A stretch of DNA of 64,000 nucleotides, from contig NZ_LR131273.1 in the NCBI RefSeq assembly GCF_900631615.1, forward strand, positions 992,001 through 1,056,000, in the 5' to 3' direction. The notes under the pieces are model-generated. The model did not search any database, was not told the DNA's origin, and saw only the letters and a program-made list of their open reading frames with translations. Below are positions 1-8,567 of the stretch, in pieces. The number at the start of each line of letters is the position of its first letter. Position 1 is the first letter of the stretch. Source of the stretch: Tsukamurella paurometabola. Its GTDB lineage: Bacteria; Actinomycetota; Actinomycetes; Mycobacteriales; Mycobacteriaceae. The position numbers and the translations under genes are program-made.

Positions 1-2682
1 CGGTCGGTCGGTCTCTAGCTCGCCGACGGCGGCGCGCAGGAGCGCCGTCTCCCGGGCGGGCGCGCCGATGCCCTCGATGCGGTAGCCACCGAAGCCCAGT
101 CCCCCGGCGCGGCGGTCCTCGTCGGCCAGCCGCCGCAACCCGCGGGCGGCGGAGCGCCCGCGCTCGGGGTCCGCGCCGCCGGTCACCACGGCCCAGAGAG
201 TGAGGGCGTCGTGCCGGTCGGCGGTCTGCCAGGCGTGCTCCGCGAGCGCCCGCCGGGCCCACCGCTCGGTGCGCGCGGGGTCCGCGGGATCGGCGAGCGC
301 GAAGGCCACGTCGAAGCCCATGCGGTGGGCGAGGCGCACCGTCTCCTCCGGGTCCCAGCGGTGGGGCGAGCCGTCGAGCCGGCCGCGGAAGGCGATGCCC
401 TCGTCGGTGATCCGGGTCTTCCGTTGCTCCGCGACGGCGGCGATACCGGTGTCGGCGAACGTGGGCGCCGGCCACGCCATGGCGCGCCCGATGCCGCCGG
501 CGCCCTCGATGACGTCGGTGCCCGGCTGCAGGTACATCTCGTGCAGGTCGACGGTCAGCGCCGCGGCGCCGAGGTTCGTCAGCTCGCGCGGGGTGAGCCC
601 GGCGATCGCGCCCCGGCCGGCGACCGGGATGTAGGCGGGGGTGGTGATCTCGCCGCGCGGCAGCACCAGCCGACCGGCCCGCGCCCCACCGGGTCCGGTG
701 GCCTCGACGGCGAACCGGACGGGGTCGGTGGTGCCGGCGGCGCGCAGGCGGGTGTTGCCGGCGATCGCCCGGTAGCCGGTGCGCAGCTCCGCGAGTTCGG
801 CGGCGAGCGAGGCGTTCTGCGCGCGCAGCTCGTCGATCTCGGAGCGGGAGGCCGCGGCCTGTTCCGGTGTGGGCGGCGGCGTGGGAACGGGGCCGGTGGG
901 CGGTTCGGTCACGATCTCCTCCGTCGGTGCTGTGCCCGCCACCGATTCCGCGGCGGCGCTGATCTCCGCGGTCTCGATGCTGTCAGGCGTCGCGGCATCG
1001 CCGGACTCCGGGGTGGTCGCCTCGATGGCGGGTGCGGTGCGCAGGGGCACGGACTTCCAGAACAGCACGAGCACCAGGCCGACGGCGGCCAGCACGGTGA
1101 CGGCGAGGAAGACGACGTCCATCGAGTCGGCGAACCCGGCCTTGAGCGGGTGGACCAGGGTGTCGGGCAGCTGCTGCAGCGCCGACGTGTCGGACATGAT
1201 GTCGCTGACGGCGCTGGAATCGCCGTGCACGAGCTTGGCGGCGAAGTCCTGCGCGGCCGGACCGTCGTGGCCCGCGGCGGCGCGCTGCACGGCCGCCGTG
1301 TACTCGGGATCCGCGGCGGCGTCCGTCATCCGCGAGCTCATCTTGTTCGGCATCTGGGAGAACAGCACGGAGAGGAACACCGCGACGCCGAGCGTGCCGC
1401 CGATCTGCCGGAAGAAGGTGGCGGCGGCGGTGGAGACGCCCATGTCGCGCGGCGGGAGGATGTTCTGCAACGCCAGGGTCAGGGGCTGCATCAGGTTGCC
1501 GAGGCCGAAGCCGATCACGGCGGCGCCGGCCATGACGTAGCCGATCTGCACGTCGGCGCTGATGTAGTGCATGCCGAACATGCCCGCCGTGAGCAGCACC
1601 GCGCCGATGATCGGGAAGATCCGGTAGCGCCCGGTGCGGGAGATCATCTGGCCGGCCAGGATCGAGCCGAGCATGAGCCCGGCGACCATGGGCAGCATGA
1701 GGAAGCCCGCCTTCGTGGGGCTGGCGCCGCGGACCACCTGGAAGTACTGGGGCAGCAGCGAGATGCCGCCGAACATGGCGGCGCCGACGACCATCGAGAT
1801 GAGCACGCCCTGCGCGAAGATGACGTTCTTGAAGATGCGCAGCGGGATGATCGCGTCCTCGCCCATGAGCTTCTCGATGCCGATGAACGCGAGGACGCCG
1901 GCCGCGCCGACGGCGTAGCAGGTGATGGCCCGCGTCGAGCCCCAGCCCCACTCCTGGCCCTGCTCGGCGACGATGAGCAGCGGCACCAGCCCGACGGACA
2001 GGGCGATGGCGCCGAACCAGTCGATGCGCACGCCCTCTCGGCGGGTGTGCGGCAGGCGCAGCACGCGGGAGACGACGGCCAGCGCCACGACGCCGATCGG
2101 CACGTTCACCAGGAAGACCCAGCGCCAGCCGGAGATGCCGAGGATGCTGTCGGCGCCGGAGAACAGTCCGCCGAGAACGGGGCCCAGCACCGAGCTGGTG
2201 CCGAAGACGGCGAGGAAGTAGCCCTGGTACTTGGCGCGCTCGCGCGGCGGGACGATGTCGCCGATGATGGTGAGCGCCAGCGACATCAGCCCGCCGGCGC
2301 CGAGGCCCTGCACGGCGCGGTAGGCGGCCAGCTCGTACATCGAGGTCGCGGTACTGCACAGCAGCGAGCCGATCACGAACACGGTGATGGCGAACATGAA
2401 GAACGGCTTGCGGCCGTAGATGTCGGACAGCTTGCCGTACAGCGGGGTGACGATCGTCGAGGTGATGAGGTACGCCGTGGTGACCCAGGCCTGCAGCTTG
2501 TAGCCGTTGAGGTCGTCGGCGATGGTGCGGATCGCGGTGGAGACGATGGTCTGGTCGAGCGCGGCGAGGAACATGCCGGTCATGAGGCCCGACAGGATGT
2601 AGAGGATCTGCTTGTGCGTCAGGCCGGCGCCCGCGGTCTCCACGACTCCGGCGTCGCCGCGGTCCGCCGTCGCGGCGGTCAC
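1..2682 (-). CDS. DHA2-type MFS drug exporter fused to a TGT-like domain (3' end outside window)
   Basis: The frame is continuous for 894 codons and runs off the window start. Residues 1-545 are a DHA2/EmrB-QacA exporter, with hydrophobic segments and typical motifs such as LDQTIV, GRKPFF and RAVQGLGAG. Residues 546-654 are an acidic, Pro-rich linker with a short coiled coil (about 615-634). From residue 655 the protein resembles tRNA-guanine transglycosylase: ARAG near the domain start, ITTPAYIPVAG, LQPGTDVIEGAGG, ITDEGIAFRGRLDGS, PEETVRLAHRMGFD, and GYRIEGIG aligning with GYAIGGL. Key TGT residues are changed: DSGGFQ is DTGIAA (D744 kept), the FDEC region is LADP, and FGIVQGG is WAVVTGG (Gln to Thr834). 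The nucleophile and zinc motif would lie outside the window. The GTG start overlaps the MarR stop (GTGA), so the pair is probably translationally coupled and MarR-controlled. Known families: DHA2 exporters and TGT. Inferred: the TGT part does not do canonical base exchange. I codon-checked the linker and TGT half and one line inside the MFS part. Confidence 0.88.
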   Translation of the reverse strand, partial: MTAATADRGDAGVVETAGAGLTHKQILYILSGLMTGMFLAALDQTIVSTAIRTIADDLNGYKLQAWVTTAYLITSTIVTPLYGKLSDIYGRKPFFMFAITVFVIGSLLCSTATSMYELAAYRAVQGLGAGGLMSLALTIIGDIVPPRERAKYQGYFLAVFGTSSVLGPVLGGLFSGADSILGISGWRWVFLVNVPIGVVALAVVSRVLRLPHTRREGVRIDWFGAIALSVGLVPLLIVAEQGQEWGWGSTRAITCYAVGAAGVLAFIGIEKLMGEDAIIPLRIFKNVIFAQGVLISMVVGAAMFGGISLLPQYFQVVRGASPTKAGFLMLPMVAGLMLGSILAGQMISRTGRYRIFPIIGAVLLTAGMFGMHYISADVQIGYVMAGAAVIGFGLGNLMQPLTLALQNILPPRDMGVSTAAATFFRQIGGTLGVAVFLSVLFSQMPNKMSSRMTDAAADPEYTAAVQRAAAGHDGPAAQDFAAKLVHGDSSAVSDIMSDTSALQQLPDTLVHPLKAGFADSMDVVFLAVTVLAAVGLVLVLFWKSVPLRTAPAIEATTPESGDAATPDSIETAEISAAAESVAGTAPTEEIVTEPPTGPVPTPPPTPEQAAASRSEIDELRAQNASLAAELAELRTGYRAIAGNTRLRAAGTTDPVRFAVEATGPGGARAGRLVLPRGEITTPAYIPVAGRGAIAGLTPRELTNLGAAALTVDLHEMYLQPGTDVIEGAGGIGRAMAWPAPTFADTGIAAVAEQRKTRITDEGIAFRGRLDGSPHRWDPEETVRLAHRMGFDVAFALADPADPARTERWARRALAEHAWQTADRHDALTLWAVVTGGADPERGRSAARGLRRLADEDRRAGGLGFGGYRIEGIGAPARETALLRAAVGELETDRP

Positions 2683-3155
2683 TCGCCTTCCCGCATCAGC
2701 TTGAGCGCCTGCTCGAACTGCACCAGCGCGCGCTTGCCCAGCGTGACGAACTGGTCGATCTCCTCATCGGTCCACTCCTCCATCAGGGGCCGCAGCTTCT
2801 CGTTGCGCTGCTCCCGGATGAAGTCGACCTTCGCCTTGCCCGCATCGGTGGCGGAGACGAGCGCGGCGCGCCGGTCGGACGGGTCCGCGGTCCGCTCGGC
2901 GTACCCGAGATTGGTCAGGGTCGTCACGTACCGGCTCGCGGTGGAGGGATCGGTGTGGATCTGGTCCGCGAGCACGGACGAGCGCATCGGGCCGTCCTTC
3001 ACCAGCGCGAACAGCGCGGTGTACGCCGCGAGCTCGACGCCGTCCGGGGCGACCGCGTGCCGGGTCATCACCGCGTGCCGTTCCTTGAGCCGGGTCAGTT
3101 CGGCGATCACGCCGACGATCCCCTCGATCCGGTCCGCTCGTTCCTCGTCCGTCAT
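2679..3155 (-). CDS. MarR-family transcriptional regulator
   Basis: This is a 158-residue winged-helix regulator, upstream in the same operon as the exporter-TGT fusion. The helix-turn-helix and wing lie around LADQIHTDPSTASRYVTTLTNLGYAERTADPSDRRAALVSAT, with the DxR wing motif (DPSDRRA) typical of MarR proteins. The C-terminal helices would form the dimer interface. I chose the ATG at 3155 because GGAGG lies 4 nt upstream. An ATG at 3206 in the same frame has no ribosome-binding site. Its TGA overlaps the GTG of the exporter gene. It probably represses the operon and is relieved by an exported ligand; the ligand cannot be read from sequence. Confidence 0.9.
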   Translation of the reverse strand: MTDEERADRIEGIVGVIAELTRLKERHAVMTRHAVAPDGVELAAYTALFALVKDGPMRSSVLADQIHTDPSTASRYVTTLTNLGYAERTADPSDRRAALVSATDAGKAKVDFIREQRNEKLRPLMEEWTDEEIDQFVTLGKRALVQFEQALKLMREGE

Positions 3156-3260
3156 CACGCCTCCGCAGGTCCTGTCCGATCCCGTCGCCGGGTTTCGAAC
3201 ACGCAAAACTACGTGCAGCCTACAACTATTAGGAGAACTAGTCGACTCGGGCGAACCGGC

Positions 3261-5766: not shown

Positions 5767-6552
5767 ATGACCGAGTGGACGTACCTGATGGACATGGACG
5801 GGGTGCTCGTCCACGAGGAGCACCTCATTCCCGGCGCCGACGCCTTCATCGCGGAACTCACGGCGGCCGGCACGCCGTTCATGGTGTTGACCAACAACTC
5901 GACGCGCACGCCCCGCGACCTGCGCGCGCGACTGGTCGCCACCGGCCTCGACATCCCCGAGGCCCGGATCTGGACGTCGGCGCTCGCCACCGCGAAGTTC
6001 CTGCAGGACCAGCGACCGAACGGGACGGCGTACGTGGTGGGTGAGTCCGGCTTGACCACGGCCCTGCACGACGTGGGCTACGTGCTCACCGACAACGATC
6101 CCGACTACGTGGTACTGGGCGAGACCCGCACGTACTCGTTCGAGGCGATCACCACCGCCATCCGGCTGATCGAGCGCGGCTCGCGGTTCATCGCCACGAA
6201 CCCGGATCCGACGGGGCCGTCGCGCGACGGCCTGCTGCCCGCGACCGGCGCCGTGGCCGCCCTCATCCGCGAGGCCACGAACCGGTCGCCGTACTACGTG
6301 GGCAAGCCGAACTCCCTCATGATGCGGTCGGCCCTGCGCGCCCTCGGGGCGCACTCCGCGGACACGCTGATGATCGGCGACCGGATGGACACCGACATCG
6401 TCTGCGGCCTGGAGGCCGGCCTCCGCACCATCCTGGTGCTCACCGGCATCTCCACCCGCGAGTCCGTGACCGCCTACCCCTACCGCCCCACCCGCACGAT
6501 CGACTCCGTCGCCGATCTCGTCGGTCACACGGAGGACCCGTTCCCCGGCTGA
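5767..6552 (+). CDS. HAD-IIA (NagD-like) phosphatase
   Basis: This 261-residue protein belongs to the NagD/p-nitrophenylphosphatase subfamily of HAD hydrolases. The nucleophile motif is [10 protein letters not shown] (Asp10, Asp12), motif II is VLTNNST, and motif III/IV are GKPNSLM and [10 protein letters not shown]. The cap is of the C2 type, inserted between motifs II and III. It probably dephosphorylates a small cytosolic phosphate ester; the substrate is unknown. A TAGATT box (5755-5760) 6 nt before the ATG suggests a leaderless mRNA. It runs divergently from the riboswitch operon, and its last 28 nt overlap the end of the convergent MFS gene. Confidence 0.9.
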
Positions 6553-7895
6553 GGACTCCGCGCGACGAGCACGGCTCCGACGCCGATGGCCGCGACCAGG
6601 CCCGCCATGATCACGAACGCGGCGCCGTAGGCGGTCGCGGGCTCGGCAATACCCGCGGTCGCGGCCACGAGCACGGCCAACCCGATACCACCACCGATCT
6701 GCTTGGCGCAGTTCATGATTCCCGAGGCGATGCCCGCCATCGAATCGGGAACGCCGGCGACGGTCATCGCGGTCAACGGTAGATTCATGACGCCCGCCCC
6801 CACCGCGATGAGAACGGCGGGGAGGAGAACCGCTGCGACATAGGTCGATTCGGGCACCAGACGACTCTGCCAGGCGAAGCCCGCGGCGAGGAGGAGCGAG
6901 CCGACGGCCACCAATGCGGTTGCGTCGTATCGCTGGAGGAGGCGCGGCGCGCACCGCAGGCCCACGATCAACTGGATGACGGTGTGCGGCAGGAACGCGA
7001 GACCGGCGATCATGGGCGGATACCCCAGCACGACCTGCAGCTGGAGTGACAGGAAGAACCACATGGGAACCAGCGCCGCCGCGGCGAGCAGGATCCCGAC
7101 GTTGCCCCAGCGCACGACCCGCCCCTTCAGCACACCGGCCGGGACCATCGGCAGCGGACTGCGGCGGTCTCGACGGACGAAGGCGGCGAACAGGATCGCC
7201 GCCGTCACGAGCGCCGCGCCGCCGGCCGTCCAGCGCCGCTCGCCCATCGCGCCGAGCCCGAACGCGGCGGTCATGAGCGCCGTCGTCACCAGGACCGCGG
7301 CGCCCACGTCCAGGCGGCCGCGCCGTGCGCGCGATCGCGCCGTTCCGGCGGGCACCGGGGCACGCCGCGCCAGGGTCGAGGCGATCGCGCCGAGCGGAAC
7401 GTTCACCAGGAGCACCGACCGCCAGCCGAACGCCTCCGTGAGCACGCCGCCGCACAGGTTGCCGGCCGTGCCGCCCGCGATGCTCATCGCGGTCCACCAG
7501 GCCAGCGCCCGGGTGCGCGCCTCTCCCTCCTCGAAGGTGGTGGTGACCAGTGCCAGCGCGGCGGGCGCGACGAACGCCGCGGCCAGCCCCTGGAGCGCAC
7601 GCCCCGCGAGGAGGACCCCCGGGTCGGGGGCCGCCCCGGCCACGACGCTCGCCGCGGTGAACAGCGCCATGCCGCCACCGAACGTCGTGCGAACACCGAC
7701 CAGGTCCGCGAACCTGCCACCGATCAGGAGAAAGCCGGCGAACGGCAGGGCGTAGGCCGTGACCACCCACTGCTGCCCGACGGTGCCGAGCCCCAGGTCG
7801 GCCCGGACGGCGGGCAGCGCGATGTTCACGACCGAGACGTCGAGCGTGATCATCAGCTGCGCGAGACAGGCCGCGGCGAGCACGCGTCCAGACAT
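6525..7895 (-). CDS. MFS transporter, DHA2-type 14-TM exporter
   Basis: This is a 456-residue integral membrane exporter. Motifs include [18 protein letters not shown] in TM1, [13 protein letters not shown] (loop 2-3) and [19 protein letters not shown], all typical of the DHA2 branch of proton-coupled drug exporters. The ATG at 7895 follows AAAGGTGG; in-frame sequence upstream of it is not membrane-like. It is divergent from the TetR gene, with a repeated GTATCA/TGATAC operator between the two starts, so it is almost certainly the regulator's target. Substrate is unknown. Confidence 0.9.
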
Positions 7896-7917
7896 GACCC
7901 ACCTTTCTACGTCACCT

Positions 7918-7947
7918 GTATCAAAATGATGTGATACGACTGTATCA
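7918..7947. promoter_or_regulatory. Operator with three half-sites in the TetR-MFS intergenic region
   Basis: Three copies of the half-site occur: GTATCA (7918-7923), TGATAC (7932-7937) and GTATCA (7942-7947). The last two form the perfect palindrome TGATACgactGTATCA, and the first two form a second, wider inverted pair. The position between divergent exporter and TetR genes fits an autoregulated operator that can bind two dimers. Confidence 0.7.
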
Positions 7948-7961
7948 ACAAGGAGGTGGCG

Positions 7962-8567
7962 TTGCCGAGGTCCGTGGATCACGACGAACGACGAGCTGAG
8001 ATCGCCGACGCGCTGGCCCGCGTCGCTGCTCGCGACGGCCTGCATGCGGTGTCGATGCGCTCGGTCGCCGCGGAAGCGGGCGTCTCACTGCGGCTCGTGC
8101 AGTACTACTTCACGAGCAAGCAACAGCTCCTCGTGGGGGCGCTCCGGAGGCTCGAGGAGCAATCGAACGAGCGGTGGCGGGCCCGGCTCACGCGCATCGG
8201 AGCGGATCCCACGCCGTGGCAGGTGTTGACCGCGTTCATCGAGGAGGCGCTGCCGACCGACCCTCCCAGCCGGAACTTCTACCGGGTCTCCTCCGCGTTC
8301 AGCGGTCTCGCGTCGACCGATCCCGCTCTCGCAGCGGAACCGCTCGCCGGGGGCGTCGGCCGGCTCCGCGCGGCCGTCGCCGCCGCCTTCGACGACGCTT
8401 CCCGCGCAGGGGAACTCGCCGCCGGCGCGGATCCCGGCCTGGAGGCGGACACTCTCGTCGCCCTCTGCAACGGCTTGAGCACCTCGGTGATCATCGGGCA
8501 TCACACGCCTGAGCGCGCAGTCGAGATCGCCAGTTACCACCTCGACCGCCTGTTCCGGAAGCGCTGA
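7962..8567 (+). CDS. TetR-family repressor
   Basis: This 201-residue regulator has an N-terminal TetR helix-turn-helix (ALARVAARDGLHAVSMRSVAAEAGVSLRLVQYYFTSKQQLL, about residues 15-54) followed by a ligand-binding alpha-helical domain. I place the start at TTG 7962 because AGGAGG (7951-7956) sits 5 nt upstream; an in-frame GTG at 7956 overlaps that ribosome-binding site. Divergent from an MFS exporter, with the GTATCA operator in between. A further gene starts 2 nt after its stop, so the regulator and that gene are co-transcribed. The inducer is unknown. Confidence 0.9.
   Translation: MPRSVDHDERRAEIADALARVAARDGLHAVSMRSVAAEAGVSLRLVQYYFTSKQQLLVGALRRLEEQSNERWRARLTRIGADPTPWQVLTAFIEEALPTDPPSRNFYRVSSAFSGLASTDPALAAEPLAGGVGRLRAAVAAAFDDASRAGELAAGADPGLEADTLVALCNGLSTSVIIGHHTPERAVEIASYHLDRLFRKR

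Follow-up and report, generated by a model that had tools for sequence, protein, structure and literature searches.

A DHA2-type exporter of Tsukamurella that ends in a degenerate tRNA-guanine transglycosylase, a possible docking module at the membrane

Why should a drug-exporter-like membrane protein end in the fold of an enzyme that exchanges bases in RNA? The question is raised by a stretch of 64,000 nucleotides from Tsukamurella paurometabola (NZ_LR131273.1, positions 992,001 to 1,056,000; the window hereafter), at the first base of which a minus-strand reading frame joins an exporter of the DHA2 type to a homologue of tRNA-guanine transglycosylase (TGT). A sequence-only reading had called this fusion from the letters of the window. 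We find that the fusion is genuine and that its TGT tail, although decayed as an enzyme, is held by purifying selection. We propose that the tail may be a non-catalytic docking module that pairs with a catalytic TGT carried by a second transporter of the same genome.

The frame is unbroken from window position 2682 to base 1, where the window edge truncates the gene. The full-length protein has 1026 residues, its stop codon lies outside the window, and there is no internal stop within the 1053-codon frame. Its parts follow one another as exporter, linker, a 22-residue zipper-like segment and a complete TGT fold:

1060..2598, minus strand: DHA2 MFS exporter domain, residues 29-541 (TIGR00711 263.4 bits, cut-off 230.2)
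838..1059, minus strand: Pro/Ala-rich linker, residues 542-615, assigned from the sequence
772..837, minus strand: zipper-like segment, residues 616-637, IDELRAQNASLAAELAELRTGY, common to Tsukamurella TGT tails
1..687, minus strand: degenerate TGT domain (PF01702), visible part residues 666-894, running on to residue 1026 outside the window
451..453, minus strand: Asp744, counterpart of the catalytic Asp102 of Zymomonas TGT in the alignment with solved TGTs

The exporter domain passes the DHA2 subfamily model TIGR00711 and matches Pfam MFS_1 over residues 33-432 (172.4 bits, cut-off 33.4); it is DHA2/EmrB-type and drug-exporter-like, with a predicted role in export. The tail matches Pfam TGT (PF01702) over residues 666-1023, covering positions 2-355 of the 357-position profile (222.7 bits, cut-off 26.3), and passes TIGR00449 (183.7 bits against 47.6), so that the profile search proposed from the sequence upheld the call of a TGT homologue. 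It falls below TIGR00430, the equivalog model of active Q-type TGT (190.1 bits against 306.75). An identical architecture in one frame in 14 of the 16 Tsukamurella genomes excludes a frameshift between the domains or an assembly artefact; of the other two genomes, G009 lacks the exporter but has the tail, and the contigs of G011 end within the genes, which makes it uncountable. A chance open frame in GC-rich DNA is excluded by the Pfam scores together with the ratios of nonsynonymous to synonymous substitution (dN/dS) given below.

The window protein does not stand alone: its genome encodes three PF01702 homologues, and all three are fused to transporters (MMPL1-TGT, DHA2-MFS-TGT and MMPL2-TGT). 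MMPL1-TGT, of 1384 residues as translated, passes TIGR00430 (378.2 bits, cut-off 306.75) and its tail is the genome's sole TGT with an intact base pocket, while MMPL2-TGT, of 1158 residues, carries a decayed TGT. A look for a separate canonical tgt had been advised: an intact-pocket TGT does exist, but it is itself the MMPL fusion, and a free-standing tgt is therefore rejected for this genome. MMPL1-TGT lies in one frame in 14 of the 16 genomes of the genus (G009 has a frame break and G011 a contig end). An MMPL2-type tail occurs in eight, with the whole of MMPL2 fused in six, a frame that opens inside MMPL2 in G015 and a contig edge in G008. Further tailed transporters are an LfrA-like MFS in G006 and an EmrB-like MFS in G010, and in G011 an MFS is followed by the zipper, with the TGT part lost to the end of the contig. 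A genome scan with two short-peptide patterns detected the tail in ten records of Tsukamurella, 70-93% identical; outside the genus the same scan returned Rehaibacterium (34%) and a Chlamydiae metagenome-assembled genome (27%), both with DSGGFQ and the zinc Cys. Within one genus an RNA-modifying enzyme fold has thus become the tail of as many as five transporter types, with catalytic and decayed versions present together.

Strain PLM1 shows the tail on its own. The exporter is missing there between the MarR gene and the zipper-TGT tail, the tail is an intact 452-residue frame (L038 / L084), and the best exporter match of the genome is only 40% identical. MMPL1 and its TGT are found in two different frames in this strain (L035). 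Since the tail is intact though the exporter is gone, it may have a use of its own.

The extent of the decay was followed in 14 tails of the MFS type (13 fused tails and the exporter-less tail of PLM1, with L032 of G010, L039 and L049 kept apart), numbered as in Zymomonas TGT. The residue-conservation alignment took 4 of the 15 MMPL1 tails and 4 of the 20 stand-alone TGTs as reference rows. The equivalents of both Asp102 and Asp280 are Asp in all 14 tails (D744 and D918 in the window protein), whereas Ser103 has become Thr and D156 Ala in every one, Q203 is replaced by Thr (12) or Ala (2) and G229 by Glu (12) or Asp (2). DSGGFQ has likewise lost its GFQ in 14 of 14, with gaps at 105-107 in the multiple alignment; the pairwise alignment sets DTGIAAV of the window tail against DSGGYQV, with IAA at these positions. 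Base-binding positions that are still kept are G104 (14/14) and G230 (13/14). The alignments thereby bear out the loss of DSGGFQ, FDEC and the Gln of VQG and the retention of D744 that had been noticed in the window, and extension past base 1 adds that the nucleophile equivalent D918 is kept and that the zinc motif CxCxxC is absent. The MMPL2 tails have decayed in another way: the D102 loop is missing entirely in all eight, and Glu stands for the nucleophile Asp280 in seven of them. All 15 MMPL1 tails retain the pocket motifs.

The MFS-TGT tail of G010, counted apart, is intermediate, with D156 kept and D102 changed to Glu, and the tails of this genome may represent an intermediate step of decay. 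We also observed that this MFS tail (L032) is the less decayed one, at 56% identity to catalytic TGT, and that L049 is a very divergent tail on another MFS.

Loss of the zinc site was considered as part of the pocket decay and rejected. CxCxxC is absent from the window protein, which keeps the His, and equally from 15 of 15 pocket-intact MMPL1 tails (including L006:2231-6385) and from 10 of 20 stand-alone relatives (L058, L059, L060, L062, L063, L064, L066, L067, L070, L071). Since intact-pocket TGTs lack the motif too, its loss is probably older than the decay, and a zinc-free TGT lineage with an intact base pocket would be of interest in its own right. The catalytic MMPL1 tail (L006:5060-6382) differs in further points, having FDEL where Zymomonas has FDEC, GGALEK against GGLAVGE, and a long insertion behind DSGGFQVMSLG. 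It may have a base specificity other than preQ1, and other than that of the eukaryotic queuine enzymes.

That the MFS-type tail is under purifying selection is seen from 12 chosen pairs, which leave out G010 and PLM1, where dN/dS is 0.105-0.200 for the TGT part and 0.048-0.180 for the exporter part. The linker, measured as residues 561-628 and so overlapping the start of the zipper, is the least constrained of the four parts in most of these pairs. Among 12 orthologues the identity to the window protein is 65-92% in the tail and 86-96% in the exporter (49% and 73%, respectively, for G010). For MMPL2 the ratios are 0.066-0.197 in the transporter body (all 15 pairs of six bodies) and 0.211-0.564 in the tail (all 21 pairs of seven of the eight tails).

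Ahead of the TGT fold stands the zipper-like segment, a putative coiled coil by its sequence pattern. This pattern of hydrophobic core positions with Asn at one of them was derived from the Tsukamurella tails themselves, and it is present in 40 of 40 tails examined, on all transporter types and with the Asn at the identical core position. An Asn in the core of a zipper favours parallel dimers. The motif was found in no other gene among 2715 frames of 76 loci (15 further matches being copies of the same genes), nor in the four stand-alone TGTs aligned. A profile of the segment run over the 16 genomes of the genus gave 41 strong matches, which are the 40 tails and the one at the G011 contig end, and two weak matches (E 0.018 and 0.047) that we take as chance. 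In the sample of the order, only 3 of 249 genomes matched, all Tsukamurella, with none at E 1e-6 in the 246 others.

The neighbourhoods of related genes suggest how the fusions arose. Among 20 loci taken from 20 other genera, five have an MMPL frame that stops no more than 133 bp from where a stand-alone tgt frame opens on the same strand, and in two of these five the stop codon alone separates the frames. Two more loci have an MMPL 1.9-2.7 kb upstream of tgt, and the remaining 13 have none within the 12 kb examined. Six of these seven tgt-linked MMPLs score higher against MMPL1 than against MMPL2, and one scores equally. In an unrooted quick MMPL tree of 20 rows, MMPL1 and six tgt-linked MMPLs are split from MMPL2 and the seventh (SH-aLRT 94), which fits, without proving it, the view that MMPL1 is the tgt neighbour and MMPL2 another paralogue; the tree leaves two origins for MMPL2, as a paralogue in its own right to which a tail was added, or as MMPL1-TGT copied in full and since diverged. 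Matches to MMPL2 outside the genus are distant (42-51%, in frames of 749-1007 residues).

The exporter has a different background. Its orthologues, at 55-69% identity, occur in 31 of 44 genomes of other genera (21 of 30 genera), and the 28 loci inspected there have at most 84 residues beyond the exporter match and hence no tail. A MarR gene adjoins this tail-less exporter in 22 of the 28, and the window has the same neighbour, a frame that we take to be of the MarR family:

2679..3206, minus strand: MarR-type regulator directly upstream of the exporter-TGT gene (open reading frame)

A second MFS-like gene of 506 residues at window positions 6525-8045 (minus strand), judged from the list of open reading frames and a weak match, is without a TGT tail, so not every such transporter acquired one.

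In an unrooted TGT tree of 45 rows, the MMPL2 tails cluster together (100/100) and those of G010 separate from the others, while the deep node that unites MFS-type with MMPL2 tails has weak support (84/45). The tail of the LfrA-like MFS of G006 is nested in the MFS-type tails beside L040 (100/96), from which it follows that the MFS-type tail moved to a second MFS. Judged from these comparisons, tgt was probably fused with its neighbouring MMPL gene, after which the zipper-TGT tail was copied onto other transporters and the pocket lost; the transfer is firm for the two MFS and probable for MMPL2.

What could a decayed TGT contribute to an exporter? We suggest, with a probability of roughly 0.4, that the tail is a non-catalytic dimerisation and docking module like QTRT2, both the pairing and its purpose being inferred. 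In the history that the comparisons support, the tgt gene was joined to the neighbouring MMPL transporter gene in Tsukamurella, a zipper-like segment was added ahead of the TGT domain, and the resulting tail was placed on the DHA2 exporter, on a second MMPL, on an LfrA-like MFS in one genome and on an EmrB-like MFS in another, with the base pocket kept in the MMPL1 copy alone. Zipper and TGT dimer face would then pair a dead tail with the catalytic MMPL1-TGT, as non-catalytic QTRT2 is paired with QTRT1 in eukaryotes. This would keep exporter and TGT together in one complex at the membrane, or let the pseudo-subunit aid tRNA modification there, or both; the exporter part most likely still exports its original substrate. 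More tentatively, zipper and pseudo-TGT might be a portable assembly tag that couples exporters to the membrane-bound catalytic TGT through TGT-type heterodimers. Docking draws support from the zipper found on every transporter type, from the purifying selection on the MFS-type tail, from the lone tail of PLM1 and from the Glu at the nucleophile that most MMPL2 tails have in common with QTRT2; in addition, the only intact-pocket TGT is membrane-fused too. By established topology DHA2 and MMPL proteins have their C termini in the cytoplasm, so that the tails can meet each other and tRNA.

Bacterial TGT is described as functional only as a homodimer (PMC5395182), with a published dimer hot spot of Phe92, Trp326', Tyr330' and His333' and a loop-helix motif. 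In the MFS-type tails Tyr330 and His333 are kept and 326 is Phe in 14 of 14. Residues 971-995, which contain the equivalents of this Tyr and His, are the 25-residue stretch that is both closest to the catalytic consensus (0.71) and most conserved within the MFS-type group (0.98). This pattern fits a one-sided partner of a catalytic TGT, but does not prove it. Several observations weigh against docking. Within the dimer face, the loop-helix half (691-715) resembles catalytic TGT less than any other stretch does (0.24), the window protein has Ala where Phe92 would be expected, and residues 841-865 come close to 971-995 in similarity (0.70), so that conservation does not single out the dimer face; moreover, the 14 rows are mutually related. 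In the MMPL2 tails residue 326 is Pro in five of eight, stretch 971-995 reaches a likeness of only 0.40 to its catalytic counterpart and constraint is relaxed (0.21-0.56 against 0.07-0.20 in the body). This looser constraint argues against one strict role shared by every tail. The common zipper may in part be plain inheritance, a pure scaffold would not need the two retained Asp, and the lone tail of PLM1 comes from an assembly of 83% completeness in which a frame break interrupts the MMPL-TGT gene. If the tails do pair, they would be a bacterial instance of pseudo-enzyme subunits in TGT and would physically link tRNA queuosine or wobble modification to membrane transport and export machinery. 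An assembly tag, if real, would be an independently arisen, membrane-bound bacterial counterpart of QTRT1/QTRT2.

That the tail is a binding module had been suggested from the sequence, and we retain this, although docking of a protein is judged likelier than binding of a small ligand. A ligand-sensing domain would gate the exporter in cis through an altered pocket that binds some other small molecule. Such a domain would account for the D744 and D918 equivalents in all 14 MFS-type rows and for the uniformity of the pocket changes (Ala for D156 in 14, Thr/Ala for Q203, Glu/Asp for G229), but we consider it unlikely, given that the tail persists without an exporter in PLM1, that such tails sit on five different transporters, and that the D102 loop is missing from 8 of 8 MMPL2 tails.

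A further possibility is that queuine or preQ1 enters through the MFS and MMPL parts and is passed on to the TGT tail. The physiology of the genus provides a setting for this. QueA is absent from 16 of 16 Tsukamurella genomes (one of them 83% complete), and de novo queuosine synthesis by this enzyme is rejected. GluQRS (TIGR03838, 294.5 bits against 276.7) is encoded near the MMPL1-TGT gene. Salvage of queuine leads to the modification of tRNA-Asp, and both are to be expected of the genus from the absence of QueA together with this neighbour, two observations that favour import. The MMPL frames that end next to tgt in other genera point the same way. The importer interpretation follows a 2024 paper (PMC11130926), the available text of which describes transporter-bTGT fusions as unique to Tsukamurella, namely Tpau_0550 (MFS) and Tpau_4044 (MMPL), and uses fusion and gene clustering as hints to queuosine-precursor transporters. 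That text also reports that a Bartonella MFS protein enabled uptake of preQ0 and preQ1 by E. coli, whereas a Corynebacterium MMPL failed to complement preQ1 uptake there, with expression problems possible. Against import by the exporter stand the loss of the base pocket in the MFS-type and MMPL2 tails, the tail-less orthologues elsewhere that lie beside MarR, and a QPTR-family protein (PF02592, substrate predicted) already present in 16 of 16 genomes. Overall we regard the importer interpretation as quite unlikely; it may still hold for MMPL1-TGT, while for the MFS part the indirect evidence is against it. The same three observations disfavour the export or sensing of a 7-deazapurine, which had been raised from the sequence.

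The two weakest alternatives are soon dealt with. A neo-functionalised enzyme, with another base to exchange or a new ribosyl substrate to act on, would explain why both catalytic Asp are kept in 14 of 14 tails and why the MFS-type tail is under purifying selection, but is improbable, as most purine-recognition positions are lost, including the aromatic residue at 106 and Gln107, the G010 version has Glu for D102, and the retained Asp may be structural. A relic drifting after an accidental fusion, which the faster evolution of the tail than of the exporter, its decay as an enzyme and the relaxed MMPL2 tails would suit, is likewise improbable in view of one open frame in 14 of 16 genomes, dN/dS of 0.105-0.200 with 0.98 conservation across 971-995, and the spread of the MFS-type tail to the LfrA-like MFS of G006.

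The sequence-only reading knew of no characterised protein like this one. The architecture was in fact already in print, but no characterisation was seen there: the main text of PMC11130926, in the form available, is without the words catalytic, degenerate, active site, coiled and zinc, leaves the decay of the tail unmentioned and names no fusions besides QPTR other than Tpau_0550 and Tpau_4044. Among the matches listed in the literature search, no other paper was on Tsukamurella transporter-TGT fusions by its title. Tpau_0550 and Tpau_4044 share architecture and genus with the window protein, and Tpau_0550 is most probably its orthologue, judging from the MFS-TGT at 579.5 kb and the MMPL-TGT at 4174 kb in G004. 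The MFS fusion is weakened as evidence for a queuosine-precursor transporter, that copy being pocketless and the exporter orthologues of related genera tail-less.

Among the known systems, the eukaryotic heterodimer QTRT1/QTRT2 offers a parallel, in that catalytic and decayed TGTs also occur in one cell. The human QTRT2 subunit is non-catalytic and has Asp changed to Glu at the nucleophile (PMC6165067, available part), as have seven of eight MMPL2 tails. Unlike the Tsukamurella proteins, for which pairing is only proposed, QTRT1/QTRT2 is described in that part without a transporter. By sequence the window tail is far closer to bacterial TGT (168.5 bits in comparison with solved TGTs) than to QTRT2 chains (at most 43.5 bits). 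It resembles TGT of the Zymomonas mobilis type in its full-length fold, its catalytic Asp pair and its hot-spot Tyr and His, and differs in lacking the base pocket and zinc Cys and in being fused behind a zipper to an exporter. The exporter domain, in turn, passes TIGR00711 like other DHA2/EmrB exporters, from which the C-terminal zipper-TGT tail sets it apart.

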